DNA of 57,408 bases from Candidatus Scalindua sp. SCAELEC01 (GTDB lineage: Bacteria > Planctomycetota > Brocadiia > Brocadiales > Scalinduaceae), in contig SHMT01000031.1 of NCBI GenBank assembly GCA_004282745.1, positions 1-57,408 on the forward strand. Direction: 5' to 3'. Positions 27,981 through 57,408 of the stretch are shown in pieces. Below the pieces are notes generated by a model, which was not told the origin of the DNA, ran no database searches, and saw only the letters and a program-made list of their open reading frames with translations. Every line of letters starts with the position of its first letter. Position 1 is the stretch's first letter. A program made the translations under genes and the position numbers.

Positions 27981-28450
27981 AATTTTGATTTTTCTATTGA
28001 ACAACACCGGAGGCTTAGTAATGCTAAGTCGAGTATTTTTTGATTGAGAAAGATCTAAAGTTCTGGTGAAATCTGGTTCTGAAAACCAATTCGTGATGGG
28101 TATACATCCAAATTGGATAGAATATGCAATTGATAGCGCAAAACTCGTAAAAAATAATAGTCTCTATACGGTTTTTGTAACAAATGGGTATGTAGCGCTT
28201 GAGGCTCTGGATGCAATAGGGTAGTTTTTAGATGCCTACCGAGTAGATAGTGTCTGAACGAAAACCCTGTGTTTGAGTGAAAAGTGCCCAGGTACAAGGC
28301 GCGTAACAATTTCGTAACCGGAACGTACAATTGCACTTGAGGATTTCGCAATTGTTGCAGTAACGTAGTAGATGGGTAGTTTTCGTTCAAACACTAGATA
28401 TAAAGGAATTCGATGACTACAAAGCAAAGCAAACCATACTAGAGAAACCG
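27981..28450 (+). pseudogene. Decayed AmrS-like radical-SAM gene split by R1 copy 2
   Basis: Fragments of an AmmeMemoRadiSam-type radical-SAM enzyme are still readable. NFDFSIEQHRR (27981) recalls the CxNWDIS region after the cluster cysteines, which are themselves broken by a stop. From about 28050 the frame reads GIHPNWIEYAIDSAKLVKNN then LYTVFVTNGYVALEALDAIG, a TAG stop, and FLDAYRVD. The reading frame then resumes exactly after the R1 element as IKEFDDYKAKQTILEK; removing the element and one 6-bp duplicate restores FLDAYRVDIKEFDDYK. The catalytic N-terminus and the C-terminal half are missing. The gap 27681-27980 shows no clear coding. Confidence 0.75.
28250..28394 (+). mobile_element. 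R1 miniature inverted-repeat element, copy 2
   Basis: 145 bp with the same inverted ends as copy 1 (GTGTCTGAACGAAAAC ... GTTTTCGTTCAAACAC). Target duplication TAGATA at 28244-28249 and 28395-28400. It is inserted inside an AmrS-like gene remnant, within the codons for VD-IK. Confidence 0.93.
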
Positions 28451-28581: not shown

Positions 28582-29382
28582 ATGTCTAAGTCACAACCCA
28601 CAATAACGCTTATTACGGATTTTGGTTTGCAAGATGGATATGCTGGGATCATGAAAGGGGTTATTGCTGGTATCAATCCATCAGCAAATATAATTGATAT
28701 AAGCAACATGGTAGAAGCTCAAAACATCTTTCAAGCCGCTTATATCCTCAACAGCTCTTATAAATACTTCCCAAAGGGTACAATTCACATTGTTGTCGTT
28801 GATCCTGGAGTTGGGAGTGAGAGAAAGATCGTCTGCTTAAAGACAGACGACTATCTGTTTCTCGCCCCTGATAATGGCGTATTATCCTTTATAACTACAA
28901 ATACCTCTTCCTCTTTTACGAGAGTGACGAATAATGAGTTCTTTTTGCCTGAGCTTAGCAACACCTTTCATGGTCGTGACATCTTTGCACCCGTTGCTGC
29001 ACATCTTTCAAGAGGGATGAACCATCAAAAACTAGGTGAGGAAATTGATAAGATAAGAAAAATTGATCTACCAAAACCGATCCTCTCACCTGGTGGTGAT
29101 TTGACCGGGGAAGTCATATATATTGATCACTTTGGAAATCTTATTACAAATATTACAAGCAAAATCCTTAACCGTTTGGAAGTAAAGCTTCAGAAACTCT
29201 CAATTATCGCTGGAGGAAAAAGAATAAACACAATTGGCACTTCGTATACTGACGTAAAAGAGAAAGACCTATTAGCCATTATTGGAAGTACCGGATTTCT
29301 TGAGATATCGGTAAACCAGGGAAGTGCAAAAAATCTTTTACAACTAAATAAGGGAGACAAGCTGATAATAGGAAGTGAATGA
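28582..29382 (+). CDS. SAM hydroxide adenosyltransferase (DUF62 family)
   Basis: 267 residues from the ATG at 28582, where the family-specific ITLITDFGLQDGYAGIMKGV begins; the longer frame upstream runs into the AmrS remnant. Further motifs are INPSANIIDISN, VVDPGVGSERK, LFLAPDNGVLSF, FHGRDIFAPVAAHL and the second domain's IDHFGNLITNI. The family splits S-adenosylmethionine with hydroxide into adenosine and methionine, and is related to fluorinase/chlorinase; the halogenase-specific insertion is not evident. Its biological role is unsettled. An R2 repeat fragment begins directly after the stop codon, then bioD. Confidence 0.9.
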   Translation: MSKSQPTITLITDFGLQDGYAGIMKGVIAGINPSANIIDISNMVEAQNIFQAAYILNSSYKYFPKGTIHIVVVDPGVGSERKIVCLKTDDYLFLAPDNGVLSFITTNTSSSFTRVTNNEFFLPELSNTFHGRDIFAPVAAHLSRGMNHQKLGEEIDKIRKIDLPKPILSPGGDLTGEVIYIDHFGNLITNITSKILNRLEVKLQKLSIIAGGKRINTIGTSYTDVKEKDLLAIIGSTGFLEISVNQGSAKNLLQLNKGDKLIIGSE

Positions 29383-29412
29383 TATACTAAAACCGATTTG
29401 GTTTTCGGTTTA
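29383..29412 (+). repeat. R2 repeat fragment
   Basis: TATACTAAAACCGATTTGG and the following TTTTCGGTTT match one end of the R2 element (31406-31545 and 56694-56833). Only this end is present. It starts at the base after the TGA of the SAM hydroxide adenosyltransferase gene. Confidence 0.7.
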
Positions 29413-31405: not shown

Positions 31406-31545
31406 TATACTCATCTCATAATGATTTTCGGATAAAATCCGAGATACAATTGAGCGAGTAAAATCCTCGACGTCTTGTGTGCGGGGATAACAGCAACCAA
31501 GTTTTAGTTTTTTAAAAAGCCTAAAACCAAATCGGTTTTAGTATA
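31406..31545 (+). mobile_element. R2 miniature element, full copy
   Basis: About 140 bp, matching 56694-56833 in reverse orientation along its whole length: TATACTCAT start, TTTTCGGATAAAATCCGAG block, GAGCGAGTAA, CCTCG-CGTCT, GGGGATA, then AACCAAATCGGTTTTAGTAT at the end. Ends TACT...AGTA are inverted and flanked by TA, as in TA-targeting MITEs. It sits about 15 bp before leuB, just upstream of its GGAGA ribosome site. The rest of 31239-31405 has no gene. Confidence 0.75.
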
Positions 31546-31560
31546 TACGGAGACCATAAT

Positions 31561-32676: not shown

Positions 32677-32737
32677 ACATCGCAAAATTAGCAATGAACT
32701 TTTAGCTGTTATTTGCAAAAAAATCAGCTAAAGATAA

Positions 32738-32766
32738 TTCACCGCAAAGGCGCAAAGAACGCAAAG
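32738..32766 (+). repeat. Flanking repeat of the GxxExxY unit (left)
   Basis: TTCACCGCAAAGGCGCAAAG followed by AACGCAAAG. It is inverted relative to 33162-33190, so the GxxExxY gene is bracketed by the pair. A third copy lies at 51931-51959 beside a decayed GxxExxY fragment. Confidence 0.8.
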
Positions 32767-32768
32767 TT

Positions 32769-33152
32769 TCAAAGATTATTGACTATTCTCTTAATACCTT
32801 CTTTTAAAATTGGAACATTGAAATTAAGCAAAACTCCTAATTTCAGATGTGCTAGCTTTAAGTATGTCAAAAGTTGAGCTTCATGAATTGGCTCAATAGT
32901 GTTAACAGACTTTAATTCCAAAATTACTTTGCCTTCAACTACTATATCCAGTTTATATCCACAGTCTAATGTAATACCTTTATAAACCAAAGCAAGAGAT
33001 TTTTGCCTCTCAAACACAATTTTTCGAATTTCCAATTCCTTGCAAAGGCACTCTTCGTAAGCCGATTCTAAAAGCCCTGGCCCAAGGTGACGATGCACTT
33101 CAATTGCAGCACCTATGATTTCTTTTGACAACCAGTCTTCTTTTTTCATCAC
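32769..33152 (-). CDS. GxxExxY family protein
   Basis: 127 residues. The naming motif is GLLESAYEECL (G-x-x-E-x-x-Y), after IIGAAIEVHRHLGPG; the C-terminal half has GYKLDIVVEGKVILELKSV, a D/E-K core like that of PD-(D/E)xK nucleases, and LTYLKLAHLKLGVLLNFN. The biochemical role is unknown. The gene is bracketed by inverted copies of a CACCGCAAAGGCGC-type repeat, and a degraded second copy is at 51773-51919, so it behaves like a small mobile cassette. Confidence 0.9.
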   Translation of the reverse strand: MMKKEDWLSKEIIGAAIEVHRHLGPGLLESAYEECLCKELEIRKIVFERQKSLALVYKGITLDCGYKLDIVVEGKVILELKSVNTIEPIHEAQLLTYLKLAHLKLGVLLNFNVPILKEGIKRIVNNL

Positions 33153-33161
33153 TATTGATTC

Positions 33162-33190
33162 CTTTGCGCTCTTTGCGCCTTTGCGGTGAA
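33162..33190 (-). repeat. Flanking repeat of the GxxExxY unit (right)
   Basis: CTTTGCGCTCTTTGCGCCTT then TGCGGTGAA, the inverse of 32738-32766 with one or two differences. It lies just upstream of the GxxExxY start codon and could supply its leader. Confidence 0.8.
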
Positions 33191-33276
33191 TTTTCAGCGA
33201 TATGGATGATTAACAAAACCCGAATTCTGCAATACGAAATCTAAAATATACCAGTTCCATATCATGAGTATTCTTC

Positions 33277-34887: not shown

Positions 34888-35494
34888 TTTTCTTAAACAG
34901 CAACAACCGAAAGACGTTAAAAAATATTGGATAATTGTCAACAACCTCAAAACCGTTACGGTTAAACACCTCTATAAAATCCTTTATACGATAGTTATAT
35001 TCAAATACATTTTCATCGCCACGGATCAGTTCTGCCAGGTAAACAAGGGTCTTCCCCAAGAATGAACCGTGGTTTGGTTGGATTAAGAGTACGTAGTTAC
35101 TGCTCACACGCATAAGCATTCGGGCATACGGTTCGAAATGCAAAAAGTGTTCAAGCATGCCATCACTTGATACCAGATCATAAGTTTCCGTTATCTCTTC
35201 AAGTTTTCTGCGTGTTACGTTCAGCCCTTTATTCCTGCACACTGAAACTGCGTGAGCAGATACATCAATCCCCACACAGTTAAAGCCGTTTTTTTTATAG
35301 ACTTCCATAGTATGCCCCAGGCCACATCCAACCTCTATAACCCTATCTATTGAAAGACCCTTGACTGCTTTTGTCAGTAACCGCTCCTTGGCCTTGAACA
35401 TCATCCTTCCGATGAAGGTTAAACGCTCCTCTTCTTCTGACCCCTCCCAACGTCTGTCCCACGTCTCATATAGTGATTCGCTATCTGCTTTCAT
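34877..35494 (-). CDS. Class I SAM-dependent methyltransferase
   Basis: 205 residues. Motif I is VIEVGCGLGHTMEVY (about 49-63), followed by CVGIDVS (motif II acidic residue) and YDLVSSDGMLEHF. This is the methyltransferase type 11/12 fold often found in glycan clusters, acting on a sugar or lipid. It is preceded by R1 copy 3; without that element its ATG would lie three bases after the stop of the GT2 gene, so the two were originally tightly coupled. It overlaps the TPR-glycosyltransferase by 11 bases. Confidence 0.88.
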   Translation of the reverse strand: MKADSESLYETWDRRWEGSEEEERLTFIGRMMFKAKERLLTKAVKGLSIDRVIEVGCGLGHTMEVYKKNGFNCVGIDVSAHAVSVCRNKGLNVTRRKLEEITETYDLVSSDGMLEHFLHFEPYARMLMRVSSNYVLLIQPNHGSFLGKTLVYLAELIRGDENVFEYNYRIKDFIEVFNRNGFEVVDNYPIFFNVFRLLLFKKNGR

Positions 35495-35504
35495 AATTTA
35501 TTTT

Positions 35505-35630
35505 GTGCTTGAATAAAAACTGCCCAGGTACAAGGCATGTAATAATTGCGTAACCGGAACGTACTCAAGTACTTGAGGATTGCGGAATTATTACAGTAAC
35601 GCAGTAGATGGGTAGTTTTTGTTCAAACAC
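35505..35630 (+). mobile_element. R1 miniature element, copy 3 (short form)
   Basis: 126 bp: GTGCTTGAATAAAAAC at the left, GTTTTTGTTCAAACAC at the right, target duplication TATTTT (35499-35504 and 35631-35636). It lacks the 19-bp second terminal unit present at the left end of the other copies. Its last base supplies the G of the TAG stop of the GT2 gene; the uninterrupted site would have been TAA. Confidence 0.92.
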
Positions 35631-36619
35631 TATTTTACCTTTGTGTGTAGGAGTCCATATGCCTCACCAGCGGCATATCCGAAATGCTGAATAAGATAGA
35701 CCAACATGACATGCAACACCAAGGTTGGGTCTCTTTTTTTCAGGCACAGATACAGAGAAAAACAGAAGAGTGCTGGAAAATAGAGTGCTGGTACTGAGAA
35801 GAAAAGAGAAAATGGAATTAGGAAGAGAGAAAAGATTGAGGCTGCAAAAAGGAGTGGCAACATAAAAGATACCGTCCACATCTGTGGATATCTCTTTAAG
35901 AGCCTCGCCCTCCCCTTTCCATACCGAAACATGTTTCGTAACCATGTCACCGGTGTTGGCCGCATCTTATGCCATACGAACGAATAGGGTACAAACAGGA
36001 ACTTGTTACCGGCAGAGAAGAGTCTGAAATTTATGTCAGCATCCTCAGCCTCACTGACGAGTGACTCATCATACCATCCAATATCCTTGATCTTCTGTTT
36101 GTTGTATAAAACATTTAGATTGGAGAGGCTTGCAACAAACCTTGGTTTCTTGAACTGCCTTCCCTGGACGCTACCAAAGCTTCCTATGTACGAATCCAGC
36201 GCAACCCCTATGGCCCTGAGAAAAGTGCTCGAATTTTCCGGAGGAATGTTAATACCCCCCACGGCAACCACACCTCTACTCTTTCCTTTAATGTCCACAT
36301 AACCTCTCACCAACGTTGCTAACCAGTCCGGTGGTGCTTCACAATCTGCGTCAATAAAGGCTATATGATCATACCGCGCCGTATGGACCCCTCTGTTTCT
36401 CCCTGCAGCAGTCCCCTTTTTAGGTTCAATAGCGAGAAAAACGTTAGAGTGTGCTCCTGCAAACTCTTTTACGATTGATTGTGTACCATCTATTGAGCAA
36501 CCGTCAACTACGAGAATTTCATATTTATCGCTATCATACGTCTGGTTGATCAGGGTGTTCAAGCACTCCCGAATATTCCTCTCTTCGTTATAGCAGGTTA
36601 TTATTACTGAAACATACAC
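35630..36619 (-). CDS. Family 2 glycosyltransferase with C-terminal membrane segments
   Basis: 329 residues. The GT-A domain has SVIITCYNEERNIRECL, YEILVVDGCSIDGTQSI, RNRGVHTARYDHIAFIDADC (the DxD metal motif) and a later SEAEDADINFRL. Two to three hydrophobic segments follow (about 250-325: FMLPLLFAASIFSLFLIPFS, LYFPALFCFSLYLCL), so it is membrane-anchored like polyprenol-linked or processive GT2 enzymes. The stop codon TAG spans the junction with R1 copy 3. It heads a group with the downstream methyltransferase and TPR-glycosyltransferase. Confidence 0.9.
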   Translation of the reverse strand: MYVSVIITCYNEERNIRECLNTLINQTYDSDKYEILVVDGCSIDGTQSIVKEFAGAHSNVFLAIEPKKGTAAGRNRGVHTARYDHIAFIDADCEAPPDWLATLVRGYVDIKGKSRGVVAVGGINIPPENSSTFLRAIGVALDSYIGSFGSVQGRQFKKPRFVASLSNLNVLYNKQKIKDIGWYDESLVSEAEDADINFRLFSAGNKFLFVPYSFVWHKMRPTPVTWLRNMFRYGKGRARLLKRYPQMWTVSFMLPLLFAASIFSLFLIPFSLFFSVPALYFPALFCFSLYLCLKKRDPTLVLHVMLVYLIQHFGYAAGEAYGLLHTKVK

Positions 36620-44636: not shown

Positions 44637-44689
44637 AGCATTACCTTCCTATAGTATTTTAACCATCCAAGATAGAGACATCCTAATTA

Positions 44690-44834
44690 GTGCTTAAACG
44701 AAAACCCTGTGCTTGAACCAAAACTGCCCAGGTACAATGCGCGTAACAATTCCGTAACCGGAACGTACTAATGTACGTGAGGATTACGGAATTATTACAG
44801 CAACGCAGTAGATGGGTAGTTTTCGTTCAAACAC
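44690..44834 (+). mobile_element. R1 miniature inverted-repeat element, copy 4
   Basis: 145 bp, ends GTGCTTAAACGAAAAC and GTTTTCGTTCAAACAC, target duplication TAATTA (44684-44689 and 44835-44840). Its last base is the G of the TAG stop of the upstream radical-SAM gene; the empty site would also read TAG. Confidence 0.93.
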
Positions 44835-46183
44835 TAATTACAGGTCGATGAACAGCTACTACATAACTCCTGGTATACCTCTTTATCATTAGTTTTCTCG
44901 TACTGGCTCAGTGCATTTCGGAATTCATCCAAGGTCATGTTGCCACGTTCTTTCAGTAGCGGGTAGTAAATGTTCATAAAATCCTCATCTTTTGTCAAGA
45001 AACAGGGGCGATATTTACCGAAAGGTGACTCTGTCAGCGCCCTTTTTCGTATACTTGACAACGATTCATCACGTACATTTCCAAGATACACGTGATTATT
45101 TGCACAGTTGATAACGTCGCCATAGGGTGTCATGTTTACCATCTCCTTTACTCCGGGACATCCGGTCCCTCCATTATTGGATTTTAATTTCCCCTCATGG
45201 TGAATATGCCAGTAATTATACGGTTCTGCTAATCTATTAAATGCCTCGAAATCTTCTTTTGTCAACGTACCATCCTTACCTTTAAACTCACCAACATCTT
45301 TGGCAAAAAGGACATTAACAAAAAGCTTCCTCTTCTCTGCAAATTCAAACAACCTGATTAAGCCGTCTGTATAGAGATTGGCCTTGCTGACAACGGTGTT
45401 GAGGATTACCTTAATCTTATATTTATCGCACAGTTCGATAGCACGCATCACCCTCTCATAACTACCCCTCTTTTGTCTGAAGATATCGTGTAGTTCAGGT
45501 ATGCCACTGTCCAGGCTAAAGTTGATGGTGTCGACTCCCAGTTCAGAACATTTTTCCGCAACCTTCTCATCAAACAGATACCCATTTGATGATGCCTGTA
45601 TATGATTGTAATGAGGTTGCCATGACTCAACTATTTCAACCCAGTTCTTTTTCATGAACGGTTCTCCACCTTCCATTCCGAAAGTCGTGGCTCCAAGCCT
45701 CATTGCCTCTTTCACAATTTTACGGTATTCAGCAGGTACTAGTTCCTTCTTAGTATTTGATTCGTCAATATTCGCGCAGAGGCAGTGATGACAGGTGAAG
45801 TTACATCTAAATGTCAGAGCAAACTCGATTCCCCTGAAAACATGTTTTTCTTTACCGAGAAGATGGTAAATAAAAGACAGCGAGTAGTTCCGGATTAATC
45901 TGAGTGGATAGAGTGGCTTGGACCAGTGTATGCCATATTTAAACCTTATTTTCCACCTCACTAAAAAGTTTTTAATACGATTTGGTTTTCTGATGATCTT
46001 TATCTCTCTTTTACGGGTCTGTTCATATGCATCATCAAATATTGCGGTAACTCTCTCTATCTCTTTGGGAGTTTTGTACATTCGTTTTATGTCACCTCTA
46101 GCCATTTCAAAATATTTTATTCTCTCTTTTTTTCTTCCTTTCTTACGTGCTTTTGACTCTACACTTACTCTTTCTGCAATCAT
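44834..46183 (-). CDS. Radical-SAM/SPASM protein (C)
   Basis: 449 residues. AAAGGAG lies 5 bases before the ATG. A basic N-terminal region of about 115 residues precedes the core; the cluster cysteines are C127, C131 and C134 in FRCNFTCHHC. MEGGEPFMKKNW and TINFSLDSG follow. The C-terminal half has GDVINCANNHVYLGNVRDES and ends CSSCSSTCN, so further Fe-S ligands reach the very last residues. It resembles gene E (47452-48528) in layout. The stop codon TAG spans the R1 copy 4 junction. Confidence 0.87.
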   Translation of the reverse strand: MIAERVSVESKARKKGRKKERIKYFEMARGDIKRMYKTPKEIERVTAIFDDAYEQTRKREIKIIRKPNRIKNFLVRWKIRFKYGIHWSKPLYPLRLIRNYSLSFIYHLLGKEKHVFRGIEFALTFRCNFTCHHCLCANIDESNTKKELVPAEYRKIVKEAMRLGATTFGMEGGEPFMKKNWVEIVESWQPHYNHIQASSNGYLFDEKVAEKCSELGVDTINFSLDSGIPELHDIFRQKRGSYERVMRAIELCDKYKIKVILNTVVSKANLYTDGLIRLFEFAEKRKLFVNVLFAKDVGEFKGKDGTLTKEDFEAFNRLAEPYNYWHIHHEGKLKSNNGGTGCPGVKEMVNMTPYGDVINCANNHVYLGNVRDESLSSIRKRALTESPFGKYRPCFLTKDEDFMNIYYPLLKERGNMTLDEFRNALSQYEKTNDKEVYQELCSSCSSTCN

Positions 46184-46226
46184 CTCTTCTCCTTTACTAG
46201 GTAATTACTGTTTATAAATATATTTA

Positions 46227-46371
46227 GTGTTTGAACGAAAACTACCCATCTACTGCGTTGCTGCAATAATTTCGCAATCCTCAAGTACAATTGTACGTTC
46301 CGGTTACGAAATTATTACGCGCCTTGTACCTAGGCACTTTTCATTCAAACACAGGGTTTTCGTTCAGACAC
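46227..46371 (-). mobile_element. R1 miniature inverted-repeat element, copy 5
   Basis: 145 bp in reverse orientation relative to copies 1-4, with target duplication TATTTA (46221-46226 and 46372-46377). It abuts the TAA stop (46375-46377) of the radical-SAM gene to its right; that stop lies in the duplicated 6 bp. Confidence 0.93.
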
Positions 46372-46374
46372 TAT

Positions 46375-47421
46375 TTAAAATTTCTCCCTGAAGAGAATTT
46401 CAGGAATGGTCTCCGGCACACACGCCTTACAGGGCTTGTGGGGTCGTTTCATATTGGACAATGCCTTACGAAACGCTCTAAATTTTTTGGTGTTATACGC
46501 TTTGTTAAGAGCGCCTCCGTTACGAACAGTCCCAAAATCCACGTCATCTGTTACAAAATTGCAACATGGTCTGGTTGTACCATCTACCGTAACATACATT
46601 GAGTGCCACGGCTTCCAGCATCGCCTGCTAGTATTGTTGTTTCTGAGTATATGATGGTTCCAGAGCATTTCACTGTTTTGTCTCATCCATGTAATATTTG
46701 ATCTTAACTGTATCCGTTCCAAAGTATTTGCCGTTTTATCCAGTGACCTTTTAAGCTTCTCTAGAGTCATGGAACCGACAGCATCATGTGATCGATAATC
46801 AATGAAACCGGTTTCTACTAGTTGAAAAATAACTGAGTCTGCGCCTAATTCCTTAGAGAGTTCAGAAAACTCTGCCAACTCATTCAGGTTAGATTGCTGG
46901 ACAACGATTGAGAGACGAAGCAAAGTACTTGCCTTACCTTCCATACGTAGTCGGTTAAAATATTTGATGTTTTCTACTATTTTATAAAATAATTTAAGAC
47001 CTCGAATTCTAGAGTATGTCTCTTCCCTTGCCGCATCCAGTGACACATTAAGCAGATTTAATTCTGAGTCTAGTAGCTGCTGAGCGTACTTTTTTAAAAG
47101 GATACCGTTCGTTGTCGTATTCACCTGTGTACCTTTGTCTCTCGCATAGCCGATTATTCTTGGCAGATCTCTGCACATGAGAGGTTCACCGTACCCATTT
47201 AACGTGATATATAACGGTTTCAGTAAATCATAAAATCTCTTAAATTCATCAAATGTTGCATCTCTTGGGTACTTTCTATTTTTATTATGTTCACAATGTA
47301 GGCAATTTTGATTACATCGGCTGCTCGGTTCATACTGCATATGTATGGGGCTGAGGAATAATCTATCAGGCCTTAAGAGTGTCTGAACTAAGGAACCTAT
47401 TTTTTGAGTAGAATTAACCAT
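46375..47421 (-). CDS. Radical-SAM/SPASM protein (D)
   Basis: 348 residues. The cluster motif is CNQNCLHC (C36, C40, C43), followed by NGYGEPLMC and NVSLDAAREETY. The C-terminal SPASM-like region has CWKPWHSMYVTVDG, RPCCNFVTDDVDFG and CKACVPE. It lies about 30 bp after gene E and is followed at its stop codon by R1 copy 5. A role in glycan or peptide modification cannot be told apart from sequence alone. Confidence 0.87.
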   Translation of the reverse strand: MVNSTQKIGSLVQTLLRPDRLFLSPIHMQYEPSSRCNQNCLHCEHNKNRKYPRDATFDEFKRFYDLLKPLYITLNGYGEPLMCRDLPRIIGYARDKGTQVNTTTNGILLKKYAQQLLDSELNLLNVSLDAAREETYSRIRGLKLFYKIVENIKYFNRLRMEGKASTLLRLSIVVQQSNLNELAEFSELSKELGADSVIFQLVETGFIDYRSHDAVGSMTLEKLKRSLDKTANTLERIQLRSNITWMRQNSEMLWNHHILRNNNTSRRCWKPWHSMYVTVDGTTRPCCNFVTDDVDFGTVRNGGALNKAYNTKKFRAFRKALSNMKRPHKPCKACVPETIPEILFREKF

Positions 47422-50762: not shown

Positions 50763-51776
50763 TCACAGAGAATTTCCATTATTGAGAATAGTCACTCCTT
50801 TTTCTGAAAAATTAAAATCAAGAAATCCCAGTTTTTCTGCTTCCATAGCGTTTCTGAGATTCTCCTGCTTCTCCTCTTCGCAATAGAACATAAAATAACC
50901 TCCTCCTCCAGCACCGGCAATCTTGCCTCCCAGGGAACCGTTTTGCATGGCAATTTCATAAATACGGTCTAAATATTCATTGGTAATGTCAGGGCTCATC
51001 CTTTTCTTGAAAGTCCAGGCTTCATCCAGCAGGCTACCAAAACGTTTAATATCACCACCTTCTAGTGATTCTTTCATACGATAAGCGTTTTTCTTGACCT
51101 CAATCATGGCTGCAATAACGGAAGTATCATTCTCTTTTATCGACGCTTCCTGACGCTTCAGAATTTTTGATGCCTGTCTGGTCTTTTGTGTAAAAAAAAG
51201 TAACAGATTCTTCTCCAGGCGTTTATATACATTCGGATCTATCGGTATTGGCTCAACAAAAACATCTTTTTCTGAAAATTCAATAAAGTTCAGACCACCA
51301 AATGCGGCAGCATATTCATCCTGTTTTCCAATCGGGAGGTTCAGTATTTCTCTTTGGATAAAATATGCGTCTTCTGCAATCTGGCGTTGAGTCAGGGTTT
51401 CATTCTTTAGTTTGGAACAGAGGCGAACCATATTCACTGTTACTGCACCGGAAGAACCAAGCCCGCTTCCGGGAGGAATTTCAGATGCCGTAAAAAGATC
51501 AAATCCGTGATAGAGACGAAAATGCTTAATTACCGCGCTTGGTATATCAAATCCTTCACCAAACTTCAGGCTGTAAAAATCATCAACTGAAAGGAGAGAC
51601 TGAAAGTCAGATGATATCATCTGAATCTTTCCATCTTCACGAGGATTATAGAAGCTGTAAAAATATTTGTTAATCGTAATGTTTACGACAGCACCGCCAT
51701 GCTTCTCATAAAAACTCGGCATGTCAGTTCCGCCACCTCCAAAGCTTATGCGGACTGGAGATCGAGTAATGATCAT
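50763..51776 (-). CDS. hddA: GHMP-family sugar kinase, heptose-7-phosphate kinase (HddA) type
   Basis: 337 residues from the ATG at 51776 (GGAG ten bases upstream). It opens IITRSPVRISFGGGGTDMPS, has HGGAVVNITINKYFYSFY, the ATP-binding PGSGLGSSGAVTVNMVRL and the C-terminal KIAGAGGGGYFMFY. This is the HddA/GmhB-pathway subgroup that phosphorylates D-glycero-D-manno-heptose 7-phosphate at C1. The adjacent nucleotidyltransferase would then make the NDP-heptose. GmhA and GmhB are not seen in the window, so other sugars (e.g. fucose-like) remain possible. Confidence 0.82.
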   Translation of the reverse strand: MIITRSPVRISFGGGGTDMPSFYEKHGGAVVNITINKYFYSFYNPREDGKIQMISSDFQSLLSVDDFYSLKFGEGFDIPSAVIKHFRLYHGFDLFTASEIPPGSGLGSSGAVTVNMVRLCSKLKNETLTQRQIAEDAYFIQREILNLPIGKQDEYAAAFGGLNFIEFSEKDVFVEPIPIDPNVYKRLEKNLLLFFTQKTRQASKILKRQEASIKENDTSVIAAMIEVKKNAYRMKESLEGGDIKRFGSLLDEAWTFKKRMSPDITNEYLDRIYEIAMQNGSLGGKIAGAGGGGYFMFYCEEEKQENLRNAMEAEKLGFLDFNFSEKGVTILNNGNSL

Positions 51777-51919
51777 AAGCCACAATCTCCATAATAAACT
51801 ATCTCACCGCACAGGCACTCATCATAATCTGTTTCTATCAATCCTGGGCCAAGATAATGGTGTCCCTGAATTGCTCCATTATTGATTTCTTTTAATAATT
51901 TATCCTCTTTTTTTAACAC
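51773..51919 (-). pseudogene. Truncated, degraded GxxExxY gene
   Basis: A GTG-started 48-codon frame reads LLKEINNGAIQGHHYLGPGL then IETDYDECLCGEI, clearly the N-terminal third of the intact protein at 32769-33152 (LSKEIIGAAIEVHRHLGPGL, LESAYEECLCKEL). The G-x-x-E-x-x-Y motif is still visible as GLIETDY. The rest is gone, ending in a TGA that overlaps the kinase start. The same CACCGCAAAG-type repeat (51931-51959) lies upstream, as for the intact gene. Confidence 0.82.
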
Positions 51920-51930
51920 TCTTGTTTTAC

Positions 51931-51959
51931 CTTTGCGTTCTTCGCGTCTTTGCGGTGAA
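51931..51959 (-). repeat. Third copy of the GxxExxY flanking repeat
   Basis: CTTTGCGTTCTTCGCGTCTT then TGCGGTGAA, matching 33162-33190 with a few changes and in the same position relative to the GxxExxY start codon. Confidence 0.78.
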
Positions 51960-51967
51960 CTCTTTCA

Positions 51968-52675
51968 TTACAACACTGATTGTACGTAACGCTTAAATAT
52001 CCTTAACCGATCTGGAGTCCCTATATCATAGAAGCGTTGTGCTGTCTCAAAACCTGCACACTCCCCCCTGGCTATGTAATATGGAAAAACCTCCTGTTCG
52101 AGTGAAAACACTTTCTCAGGAGGAGCACTATCTAAAATATCTTTTTTCAAGGCCAGAACACCGGCATCCACGTATTGGTGAATTGTGTTCCCTCTATCCT
52201 TTTCATATTGTGTTACTATACCCCTGTTATCAAGTGACACATTATTCGGCACAGAAGTGTCTTCCCTGTTGTCATACACTACCATTAAGATTGCTTTATC
52301 TGCGTCATGGAAATGCCTCTCTAGAGATGAATAGTTTATTGGTAAAAAAGAGTCTCCGTATAGGAGATAGAAACAGTCATCTAAAAGGTTTTCTCCATTT
52401 TTTAACGCACCACCTGTACCGAGTGGTTGCTCCTCAAATGAGTAGGTAATCCTCATATCTCTGGACCGTCCATCACCAAAGTAGCGTCGAACATTTCCAC
52501 CCAGATAACCAACGCAGATTACAATATCAGTTATGTTATTATCCTTCAGATACTGAAGCTGATATTCCAGGTATGGTTTTCCCATAACCGGTATCATAGG
52601 CTTGGGAGTCTTCAGGGTTAATGGTCTGAATCTTGTTCCCAACCCACCAGCCAAAATTACCGCTTGCATTGGCAT
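51968..52675 (-). CDS. Sugar-1-phosphate nucleotidyltransferase (HddC-like)
   Basis: 235 residues. The NTP-transferase signature GLGTRFRPLTLKTPKPMIPV (with AVILAG just before) is followed by GYLGGNVRRYFGDG, the EEQPLGTGGAL loop, YGDSFLP and RFYDIGTPDRLRIFK. It makes NDP-sugar from sugar-1-phosphate. Next to an HddA-type kinase, the best guess is heptose 1-phosphate nucleotidylyltransferase (HddC); the base used (GTP, CTP or TTP) is not certain from motif alone. Only a decayed GxxExxY piece separates it from the kinase. Confidence 0.86.
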   Translation of the reverse strand: MPMQAVILAGGLGTRFRPLTLKTPKPMIPVMGKPYLEYQLQYLKDNNITDIVICVGYLGGNVRRYFGDGRSRDMRITYSFEEQPLGTGGALKNGENLLDDCFYLLYGDSFLPINYSSLERHFHDADKAILMVVYDNREDTSVPNNVSLDNRGIVTQYEKDRGNTIHQYVDAGVLALKKDILDSAPPEKVFSLEQEVFPYYIARGECAGFETAQRFYDIGTPDRLRIFKRYVQSVL

Positions 52676-52975
52676 AGGATAAACACCATTTATAAATTAG
52701 AAATTCATAATGGATACAACAAAAATTTAATTGACATATAATGTCATGGGTTAAGGAGAGCTAAAACCATGCCGATATGCAATATCGTAAGGGTCTTAAA
52801 ATATCTGTCTCAAGCAGTTGAGTTATTAAGGTTTACATAGAGTGTTTCTCAAGTGGGGATTATGGGATGGTAGATTTCGAATTTTGATTTGTGTTGTACC
52901 GTATAATTTTTCATCACACTGTTGAAAAATGTATTCTCATAAAGTTTCTGAGGTCAATAACTATGAATGTCGTTT
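52676..52975. other. Intergenic, no gene seen
   Basis: About 300 bp of AT-rich sequence upstream of the nucleotidyltransferase. No reading frame or RNA gene is recognised; the likely promoter for the 32-52 kb minus-strand run starts here. Confidence 0.5.
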
Positions 52976-53007
52976 TACTAAAACCGACTTGGTTTCCGGT
53001 TTTAGTA
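52976..53007 (-). repeat. R2-derived hairpin at the 3' end of the membrane glycosyltransferase gene
   Basis: TACTAAAACCG and CGGTTTTAGTA are perfect 11-bp arms around a 10-base loop (ACTTGGTTTC). It shares the end sequence of R2 and starts 8 bases after the stop codon of the 53015-55102 gene, so it may act as a terminator-like or 3'-stabilising structure. Confidence 0.72.
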
Positions 53008-56554: not shown

Positions 56555-56693
56555 GCCGGCTCCAAATTATTTTCCTTCCCATAACTCAGTACCTTTTGCA
56601 ATCAGGCGTATACACTAAGGGCCCAAGAAAGAGTTTCTAACCCAGATACATAAAATATGTTCATAAGTTCAAAAATTGTCTTTGCAAAGTAGA

Positions 56694-56833
56694 TATACTA
56701 AAACCGATTTGGTTTTCGGTTTTCTGAAAACCAAATCTTGGTGAAGGTATCCCCGGACAAACCAGACGCCGAGGACGTTACTCGCTCAGCTTTTACTCGG
56801 ATTTTATCCGAAAACCATTATGACATGAGTATA
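56694..56833 (-). mobile_element. R2 miniature element, second full copy
   Basis: About 140 bp, reverse complement of 31406-31545 with scattered differences. Ends TACTAAAACC and CATGAGTA with flanking TA. It carries the same hairpin blocks (CTCGGATTTTATCCGAAAA; GGTTTTCGGTTTTCTGAAAACC). It lies upstream of gene G. Confidence 0.75.
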
Positions 56834-57023
56834 GTAATTTCCGGTTTCAGACATCCGAGTTAGAATGCGCTAAAAACGTGCCGAAAATTATTACTTTCTT
56901 TCATTCTTGCATACGGCAATAACATCTTCCAAGTTAGTGTCTCCTGCCTAGTGATCAGGAGTCGTACAATAGGTTGTTCTCCCTGATCCTCCGTTACTAA
57001 CATGAATATTGCTATACTATTTA

Positions 57024-57168
57024 GTGTTTGAACGAAAACTGCCCACCTACTACGTTGCTGCAACAATTTCGAAATCCTCAAGTACAATTGTACGTTCCGG
57101 TTACGAAATTGTTACGCGCCTTGTACCTGGGCACTTTTCATTCAAACACAGGGTTTTCGTTCAGACAC
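57024..57168 (-). mobile_element. R1 miniature inverted-repeat element, copy 6
   Basis: 145 bp, same orientation as copy 5, target duplication TATTTA (57018-57023 and 57169-57174). No gene is seen directly at its edges; 56834-57023 and 57175-57408 are AT-rich without recognised coding. Confidence 0.92.
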
Positions 57169-57408
57169 TATTTAGATAAAACCTAACCAATATTAGTTTT
57201 TCAAATTATTTCCTGGAAAAAAGCATCTAGTTTTCATCATTAAAATTGTTTATTTTTTCAACAACTTATACATTATTTTGTAACGGAAGTTCACCCCTAT
57301 AAAACGCATTAACACTCTTATAGTATTGTAGTTAGGCAAAATTTTTCCCCATTATGTAGTCACTAATATATTTTTATAGATTGCATTATTTGCTTGCAAT
57401 TACGGGAG

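Follow-up and report, generated by a model that had tools for sequence, protein, structure and literature searches.

Positions 51773-51959 of the window (the whole stretch of DNA analysed here, 57 408 nt) are a decayed, truncated copy of a cassette that is intact at 32733-33195, where a GxxExxY gene lies between inverted arms built of short iterons. The cassette was found in many bacterial phyla, and the pattern extends far beyond the window. We consider it probable (roughly 0.68) that the copy descends from a minimal mobile cassette of iteron arms and a GxxExxY gene, which would insert into operons, with the nuclease as its likeliest mobiliser and with deletants mobilised in trans. The relevant features of the window are as follows.

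32733..33195, minus strand: intact GxxExxY cassette from arm to arm, with 34-nt inverted arms of 94% complementarity
33162..33195, minus strand: 5΄ arm of the intact cassette, GAAAATTCACCGCAAAGGCGCAAAGAGCGCAAAG, with three CGCAAAG iterons
32769..33152, minus strand: GxxExxY gene with a GTG start, PD-(D/E)XK nuclease family, residues E29, D69 and E79-x-K81
32733..32766, minus strand: 3΄ arm of the intact cassette, an inverted copy of the 5΄ arm
51931..51959, minus strand: TTCACCGCAAAGACGCGAAGAACGCAAAG, the 5΄ arm belonging to the decayed cassette, which fits the strict arm pattern and shares 90% identity with the intact arm
51776..51919, minus strand: remnant GxxExxY ORF, with family homology over about 51800-51898, then continuing as far as the next gene's start codon
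51804..51808, minus strand: GGTGA joined to the gene codon TGC, a probable vestige of the 3΄ arm end, judged by comparing the junction of TGCCTGTGC and GGTGAGATAG with the gene and the 3΄ arm

By profile search, the intact ORF (32769-33152) belongs to the GxxExxY family, with 154.6 bits for TIGR04256 (above the curated cut-off of 35) and 147.2 bits for PF13366 (PDDEXK_3). The remnant ORF (51776-51919) matched positions 2-34 of TIGR04256 (20.3 bits, E = 5.5e-4), a score under the cut-off because the ORF is truncated, and also matched PF13366. The stretch 51773-51959 accordingly comprises the 5΄ arm and the first ~34 codons of a TIGR04256 gene, and the repeat at 51930-51959 agrees with that at 33161-33190 at 90% of positions. 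An earlier note on this DNA had claimed that fragment and repeat mirror the layout of the intact gene and that the latter has inverted repeats on both sides; the profile match and the identity of the repeats bear out the former claim, and the 34-nt pair at 32733-32766 and 33162-33195 (94%) bears out the latter.

The remnant is flanked, in the same direction, by a nucleotidyltransferase-type gene (51968-52675) and a kinase-type gene, both named from their translations, and abuts the start of the kinase-type gene. It corresponds to the 5΄ third of a cassette and terminates in GGTGA, apparently a leftover of the 3΄ arm: the junction reads ...GAGTGCCTGTGC followed by GGTGAGATAG, at a point where the intact gene reads GAGTGCCTTTGCAAGG and the intact 3΄ arm reads CGCCTTTGCGGTGAA. 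Since the intact gene and the 3΄ arm have matching bases, a microhomology deletion that spared the last bases of the 3΄ arm would be a simple account, and the GCCTTTGC microhomology common to gene and arm would explain what the remnant has lost.

The 19-nt core of the repeat (with up to two mismatches) occurs only six times in the 4.59-Mb host genome, compared with no occurrence of a reversed control. Two copies lie at the intact gene, one lies at the remnant, two lie on contig C88 as an inverted pair without a gene, and one is degenerate; this placement is far beyond chance. The DNA inside the C88 pair aligns to the 3΄ end of the gene (inner alignment score 42, compared with a shuffle maximum of 25), and judged by this alignment, the pair is a shrunken cassette. 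All six near-full-length GxxExxY genes of the host genome have inverted flanking repeats, of six different sequences. Among the genomes of the host's order, copies per genome reach 22 for GxxExxY and 29 for the four-helix-bundle (23S IVP) genes considered below.

The flank comparison was then extended to 151 full-length GxxExxY loci, drawn partly from the host's order and partly from 80 named contigs. The named loci were collected with a narrower query, because a twelve-sequence alignment was too diverse for a genome scan, and one protein clade is therefore over-represented among them. At each locus the two 250-bp flanks were searched for their best inverted match, whose score had a median of 38, compared with 17 for flanks 750-1000 bp off. 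Strongly matching inverted arms (a score of at least 28), equivalent to the terminal inverted repeats of an insertion sequence or MITE, were found at 114 of the 151 loci, compared with 0 of 130 distant flanks and 1 of 162 neighbouring ORFs, and 65 of the 80 named loci scored above all 100 dinucleotide shuffles. The other 37 loci were without strong arms within 250 bp, the range to which the search was confined, so that arms further out or of unusual design escape the count. The earlier note had asked whether GxxExxY genes collected across genomes are bracketed by repeats and had suggested that the family travels as a small cassette; both the counts and the three sites described below that are filled or empty depending on the species speak in favor of this. 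Its proposal that CACCGCAAAGGCGC-type repeats form the boundaries holds for the presence of bounding repeats, but CACCGCAAAGGCGC is one of many arm classes, with an iteron sequence for each gene lineage.

An intact cassette measures ~0.45 kb, and an arm consists of about three iterons (CRCRRAG, period 8-9) in the form (TTC)ACC-R-CRRAG-N-CRCRRAG-NN-CRCRRAG, or of the relatives CACAGAT, CACGAAT, CACGGAA and ACAGGATAA. When the arms of an element were compared with each other, 5.4% of positions were mismatched in the iteron cores and 45.7% in the spacers, a contrast that is somewhat inflated because the core pattern was demanded in one arm, the other being free. That the cores are kept and the spacers drift suggests recognition sites for a protein, not a stem maintained for base pairing. 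The mismatches comprised 104 wobble-compatible and 124 incompatible cases, without an excess of G-U wobble. Two other accounts of the arms were rejected: RNA pairing as the cause of arm matching, given the noncomplementary spacers and the lack of a wobble bias, and one universal repeat, given that arms differ from copy to copy.

In the named set, GxxExxY genes occurred in 17 phyla, 16 bacterial and one archaeal; the flanks of the archaeal locus (a Methanothrix contig) contained no arm match. Arm similarity tracked protein identity across unrelated sites (Mantel rho = 0.32 across many phyla and 0.47 within one order, with 0 of 500 permutations reaching the observed value in each set). On the protein tree, copies from the host are scattered, some being nearest to copies from other phyla, and the phylum label changes 42 times, compared with a shuffle minimum of 55; the history of the family thus combines some vertical signal with much transfer. 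A search for phage spread gave no match in 50 697 phage records and only two among 2.9 million viral contigs, and a plasmid search for GxxExxY gave eight weak matches.

Empty sites were sought by running joined-flank queries against 59 relatives. At the junction of locus L194, within an operon of apparent restriction-modification type, the cassette is present in genomes G053, G051 and G034, the site is empty in G049 and G027 with few bases between stop and start, and an unrelated small element (GTGTCATTAAGTTAA...TTAACTTAATGACAT) occupies it in G046, G056 and G037 (L221, L222 and L223). At that of L032, within an apparent efflux operon, one cassette class was found in G037, G048 and G030, and another iteron class as remnants in G032 and G024, the G032 remnant having GxxExxY-like coding sequence; G028 has a shrunken copy, and the genes abut directly in G045. 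The L018 junction is filled in G048 and G051 and empty in G054, G056, G024 and G050, and the junction of the window's own remnant contains remnants with other iterons in G010 and G012. The direction, insertion as opposed to loss, is inferred from the scatter of the filled species and from the different cassettes in one gap. Comparison of the flanks gave matches only at orthologous loci and a few common junctions; most insertion sites are unrelated, and there is no single conserved insertion site per lineage of the kind expected for a homing endonuclease. Candidate 5-bp duplications (TATGA and AAATA) were seen at two filled sites with empty relatives, and 5-mer matches around cassette ends numbered 29, compared with 12.5 expected (2 of 400 shuffles). 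The target duplications that the earlier note recommended looking for are thus suggested, at about 5 bp, rather than established.

Where both neighbours are co-directional, the gene lies in sense at 95 loci and in antisense at 5 (40:5 in the named set and 55:0 in the order); because ORF calling relied on a plain length criterion and part of the order's loci are orthologous, the p-value is overstated, but the direction of the bias is unmistakable. It would be explained by a promoterless gene that relies on the host transcript. The complete E..D..(E/D)xK motif was retained in 148 of the 151 full-length loci, and dN/dS, where usable (14 ortholog pairs), ranged from 0.05 to 0.22, which indicates that the protein is under purifying selection. 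An AlphaFold2 model (pLDDT 96.2) had the Cas4 protein SSO0001 as its closest solved structure (Z = 9.7 over 99 residues), followed by matches with Z = 7.5 and lower; matches other than Cas4-type nucleases, all with Z < 8, were left uninterpreted. The E..D..(E/Q/D)xK motif and the restriction-endonuclease-like fold of the model agree with membership in the PD-(D/E)XK superfamily. A search against known defence systems gave only weak matches, to Cas4 and PDC-M36A, and a sequence search of the PDB with GxxExxY gave nothing significant.

Arms are also found on their own. Genome-wide counts were made on one genome per species with the strict arm pattern, which had no matches in reverse. Strict arms were present in 44 of the 50 genomes of the order that have the gene, compared with none of the 9 that do not (all nine from one family), and in 36 of 96 compared with 6 of 103 genomes across the phylum (P = 2e-8). 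Arms outnumber genes in, for example, G102 (242 arms, 2 genes) and G230 (92 arms, 4 genes). Most of the arms sampled outside known gene loci had no adjoining gene, and such gene-less arms were either inverted pairs, with an outer length of 67-261 bp, or orphans; in G230, 20 of the 28 sampled arms were paired. The gene cassette and the gene-less pairs of G102 have the same termini (GGATGTC/ACC...GGT/GACATCC), with no similarity between their flanks past 40 bp, and in G230 the terminus AAGATT(C/T)/ACC is common to both, as the ends are in insertion sequences and their MITEs. No such match was found in G059, where six gene-less inverted pairs of 101-102 bp with varying inner sequence (L329-L334) have an iteron class unlike that of the only GxxExxY gene found there. 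Many strict arms without a GxxExxY match were found in G097, G108, G129 and G146; in these genomes the gene may have been lost or missed, or another enzyme or family may serve. The earlier note would have given up the cassette idea if the repeat proved just as common without the gene and genes lacking the repeat were the rule. This came half true, in that arms outnumber genes in several genomes, but the pairs of G102 and G230, bearing the cassette's own termini, fit non-autonomous derivatives and leave the idea standing; by their sequences, gene-bearing and gene-less copies relate to each other as autonomous and non-autonomous elements would.

The layout is not confined to GxxExxY. The TIGR02436 family, a four-helix-bundle ORF known from 23S rRNA intervening sequences (IVSs; elements of ~0.4 kb that end in inverted repeats of ~28 bp, PMC4990558), has the same layout with other iterons, inverted arms being found at 33 of 46 loci compared with 0 of 44, and its orientation is sense throughout (27:0). 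A gap that reads, from translations, as cas4/cas1 in anammox-like genomes (L038, L184, L215 and L216) harbours elements of both kinds, that of GxxExxY in G032 and G030 and that of TIGR02436 in G034 and G040; the same exchange was seen at one other site. The 23S_rRNA_IVP genes reported as CRISPR-associated, owing to their position in cas loci (PMC3936711), may owe that position to such insertions, and the label serves as a warning that inference of function from neighbourhood can mislead.

The architecture, the co-inheritance of arm and gene, the insertion polymorphism, the sense bias, the termini common to both kinds of copy in two genomes, the purifying selection and the conserved catalytic residues can be combined as follows. 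In the cassette, about three direct iterons make up the 5΄ arm, which is followed by a short PD-(D/E)XK nuclease-like gene and by a 3΄ arm that is an inverted copy of the first. It would enter short gaps between genes of transcribed operons, mostly in sense, and with the gene start a few tens of bases from the arm, the gene could be read from the host transcript. A protein, most likely the GxxExxY nuclease, would bind the iterons at both ends and mobilise the element, the nuclease cutting at or near the ends or the target; we infer its part as mobilising enzyme, the iteron binding and the reaction from sequence and model. Internally deleted copies that kept their ends would be mobilised in trans and pile up as inverted pairs.

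Several observations stand against this explanation: the many arms without a detected gene in G097, G108 and G146; the arm class of the sole gene found in G059, which is not that of the abundant 102-bp pairs; the 37 loci without strong arms within 250 bp; the target duplication, which is no more than suggestive; and TIGR02436, a non-nuclease whose identical architecture implies that such elements need no nuclease in the cassette. In a rival account, GxxExxY and the four-helix-bundle genes are passengers of inverted-arm elements moved by another trans-acting enzyme, or, as with RAYT, the iteron pair is the mobile unit and GxxExxY a helper retained by the host. Two unrelated gene families with one architecture, even at the same sites, the vast excess of arms over genes in some genomes and the arms without a gene in others would be expected in either case; however, arm sequence tracks the GxxExxY clade, the protein retains its catalytic residues under purifying selection, and GxxExxY is multicopy with an arm class per copy, unlike the single-copy RAYT. 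We therefore regard these possibilities as unlikely, albeit worth keeping in mind.

An RNA-level element akin to the 23S rRNA IVS, in which pairing of the arms within the transcript gives a hairpin that undergoes processing, with spread via RNA, would account for the strong sense bias and recalls the encoding of TIGR02436 in IVSs of similar size with terminal inverted repeats (PMC4990558). A promoterless gene also explains the bias, however, and the spacers are not complementary (45.7% mismatch) and lack a G-U wobble excess (104 versus 124), leaving this account little credence. Equally slight is the probability of an immobile locus, in which the arms would act as autoregulatory operators flanking a gene of use to the host, one passed on chiefly by descent or by ordinary gene transfer. 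Iterated sites of a protein-binding type and purifying selection agree with such an arrangement, but it is disfavoured by empty sites that differ by a cassette at the arm boundaries, by different cassettes in one junction, and by inverted arms that lie on both sides of the gene and recur in dispersed gene-less pairs with the same termini.

For the mobile cassette, the nearest known arrangements are insertion sequences with their MITEs and RAYT/REPIN. It resembles the former in having one gene within terminal inverted repeats, presence/absence polymorphism and end-sharing internal deletants; it differs in that its sole ORF is a ~125-aa nuclease of Cas4-like fold and no known transposase, in its iteron-type ends, in its strong sense bias in operons and in a target duplication that is only a candidate. 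RAYT/REPIN systems have a small nuclease-type gene with short flanking repeats, dispersed intergenic inverted pairs and orphans, and a repeat type for each gene lineage (PMC3116915). All of these have counterparts here, namely a GxxExxY gene between short repeats, dispersed gene-less inverted pairs (20 of the 28 sampled arms in G230 and the 102-bp pairs in G059) with orphans, and the match of repeat to lineage. However, RAYTs are Y1 tyrosine transposases that occur as distinct single copies and are apparently not self-mobile, whereas the cassette gene is of the PD-(D/E)XK type and multicopy, and REP units are palindromes, whereas the arm is a direct iteron array and itself no palindrome. The 23S rRNA IVS is similar in size (~0.4 kb), terminal inverted repeats and single small ORF, a layout also seen in the TIGR02436 copies (PMC4990558), but the arms here are iterated arrays resembling protein sites rather than a conserved stem, and the window cassettes and polymorphic sites, read at base level, lie between protein genes rather than in 23S genes. 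PD-(D/E)XK homing endonucleases, free-standing or intron-borne, are likewise small selfish nuclease genes of the same superfamily, but the cassette has mutually unrelated insertion sites and carries its own matching ends. In the open-access literature searched, we found no description of such cassettes; mobility is not the topic where the name GxxExxY occurs, and the iteron and family strings had no occurrence.

Few small genes that lack an explanation are as common in environmental genomes as those for GxxExxY and the four-helix-bundle (23S IVP) proteins. If both are seen as passengers or drivers of a single type of miniature element, they would gain a testable role, and families of short tandem-like intergenic repeats would be explained. 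Were GxxExxY to mobilise the element, it would rank as a DNA-mobility enzyme of very small size; PD-(D/E)XK proteins are not known to transpose by themselves. It is a tentative and rather doubtful extension that GxxExxY might mobilise, alone and without help from other enzymes, a new class of miniature transposable elements, with a ~125-aa nuclease of Cas4-like fold, iteron-type inverted ends and MITE families of its own, and that the freestanding 23S-IVS four-helix-bundle genes might represent a parallel class.

The window also contains two other repeat families. A repeat of 150-160 nt is present in six copies that are 77-96% alike (1793-1941, 28248-28396, 35484-35632 and 44688-44836 on the plus strand; 46221-46377 and 57018-57174 on the minus strand), and with its palindromic centre GTACAATTGTAC it resembles another MITE-like family. 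A repeat around ACTAAAACCGATTTGGTTTTCGGTTT occurs at 29375-29412, 31504-31546, 52966-53003 and 56686-56735, and at locus L009 after position 1590; a further copy of this type splits a GxxExxY remnant on contig C18.
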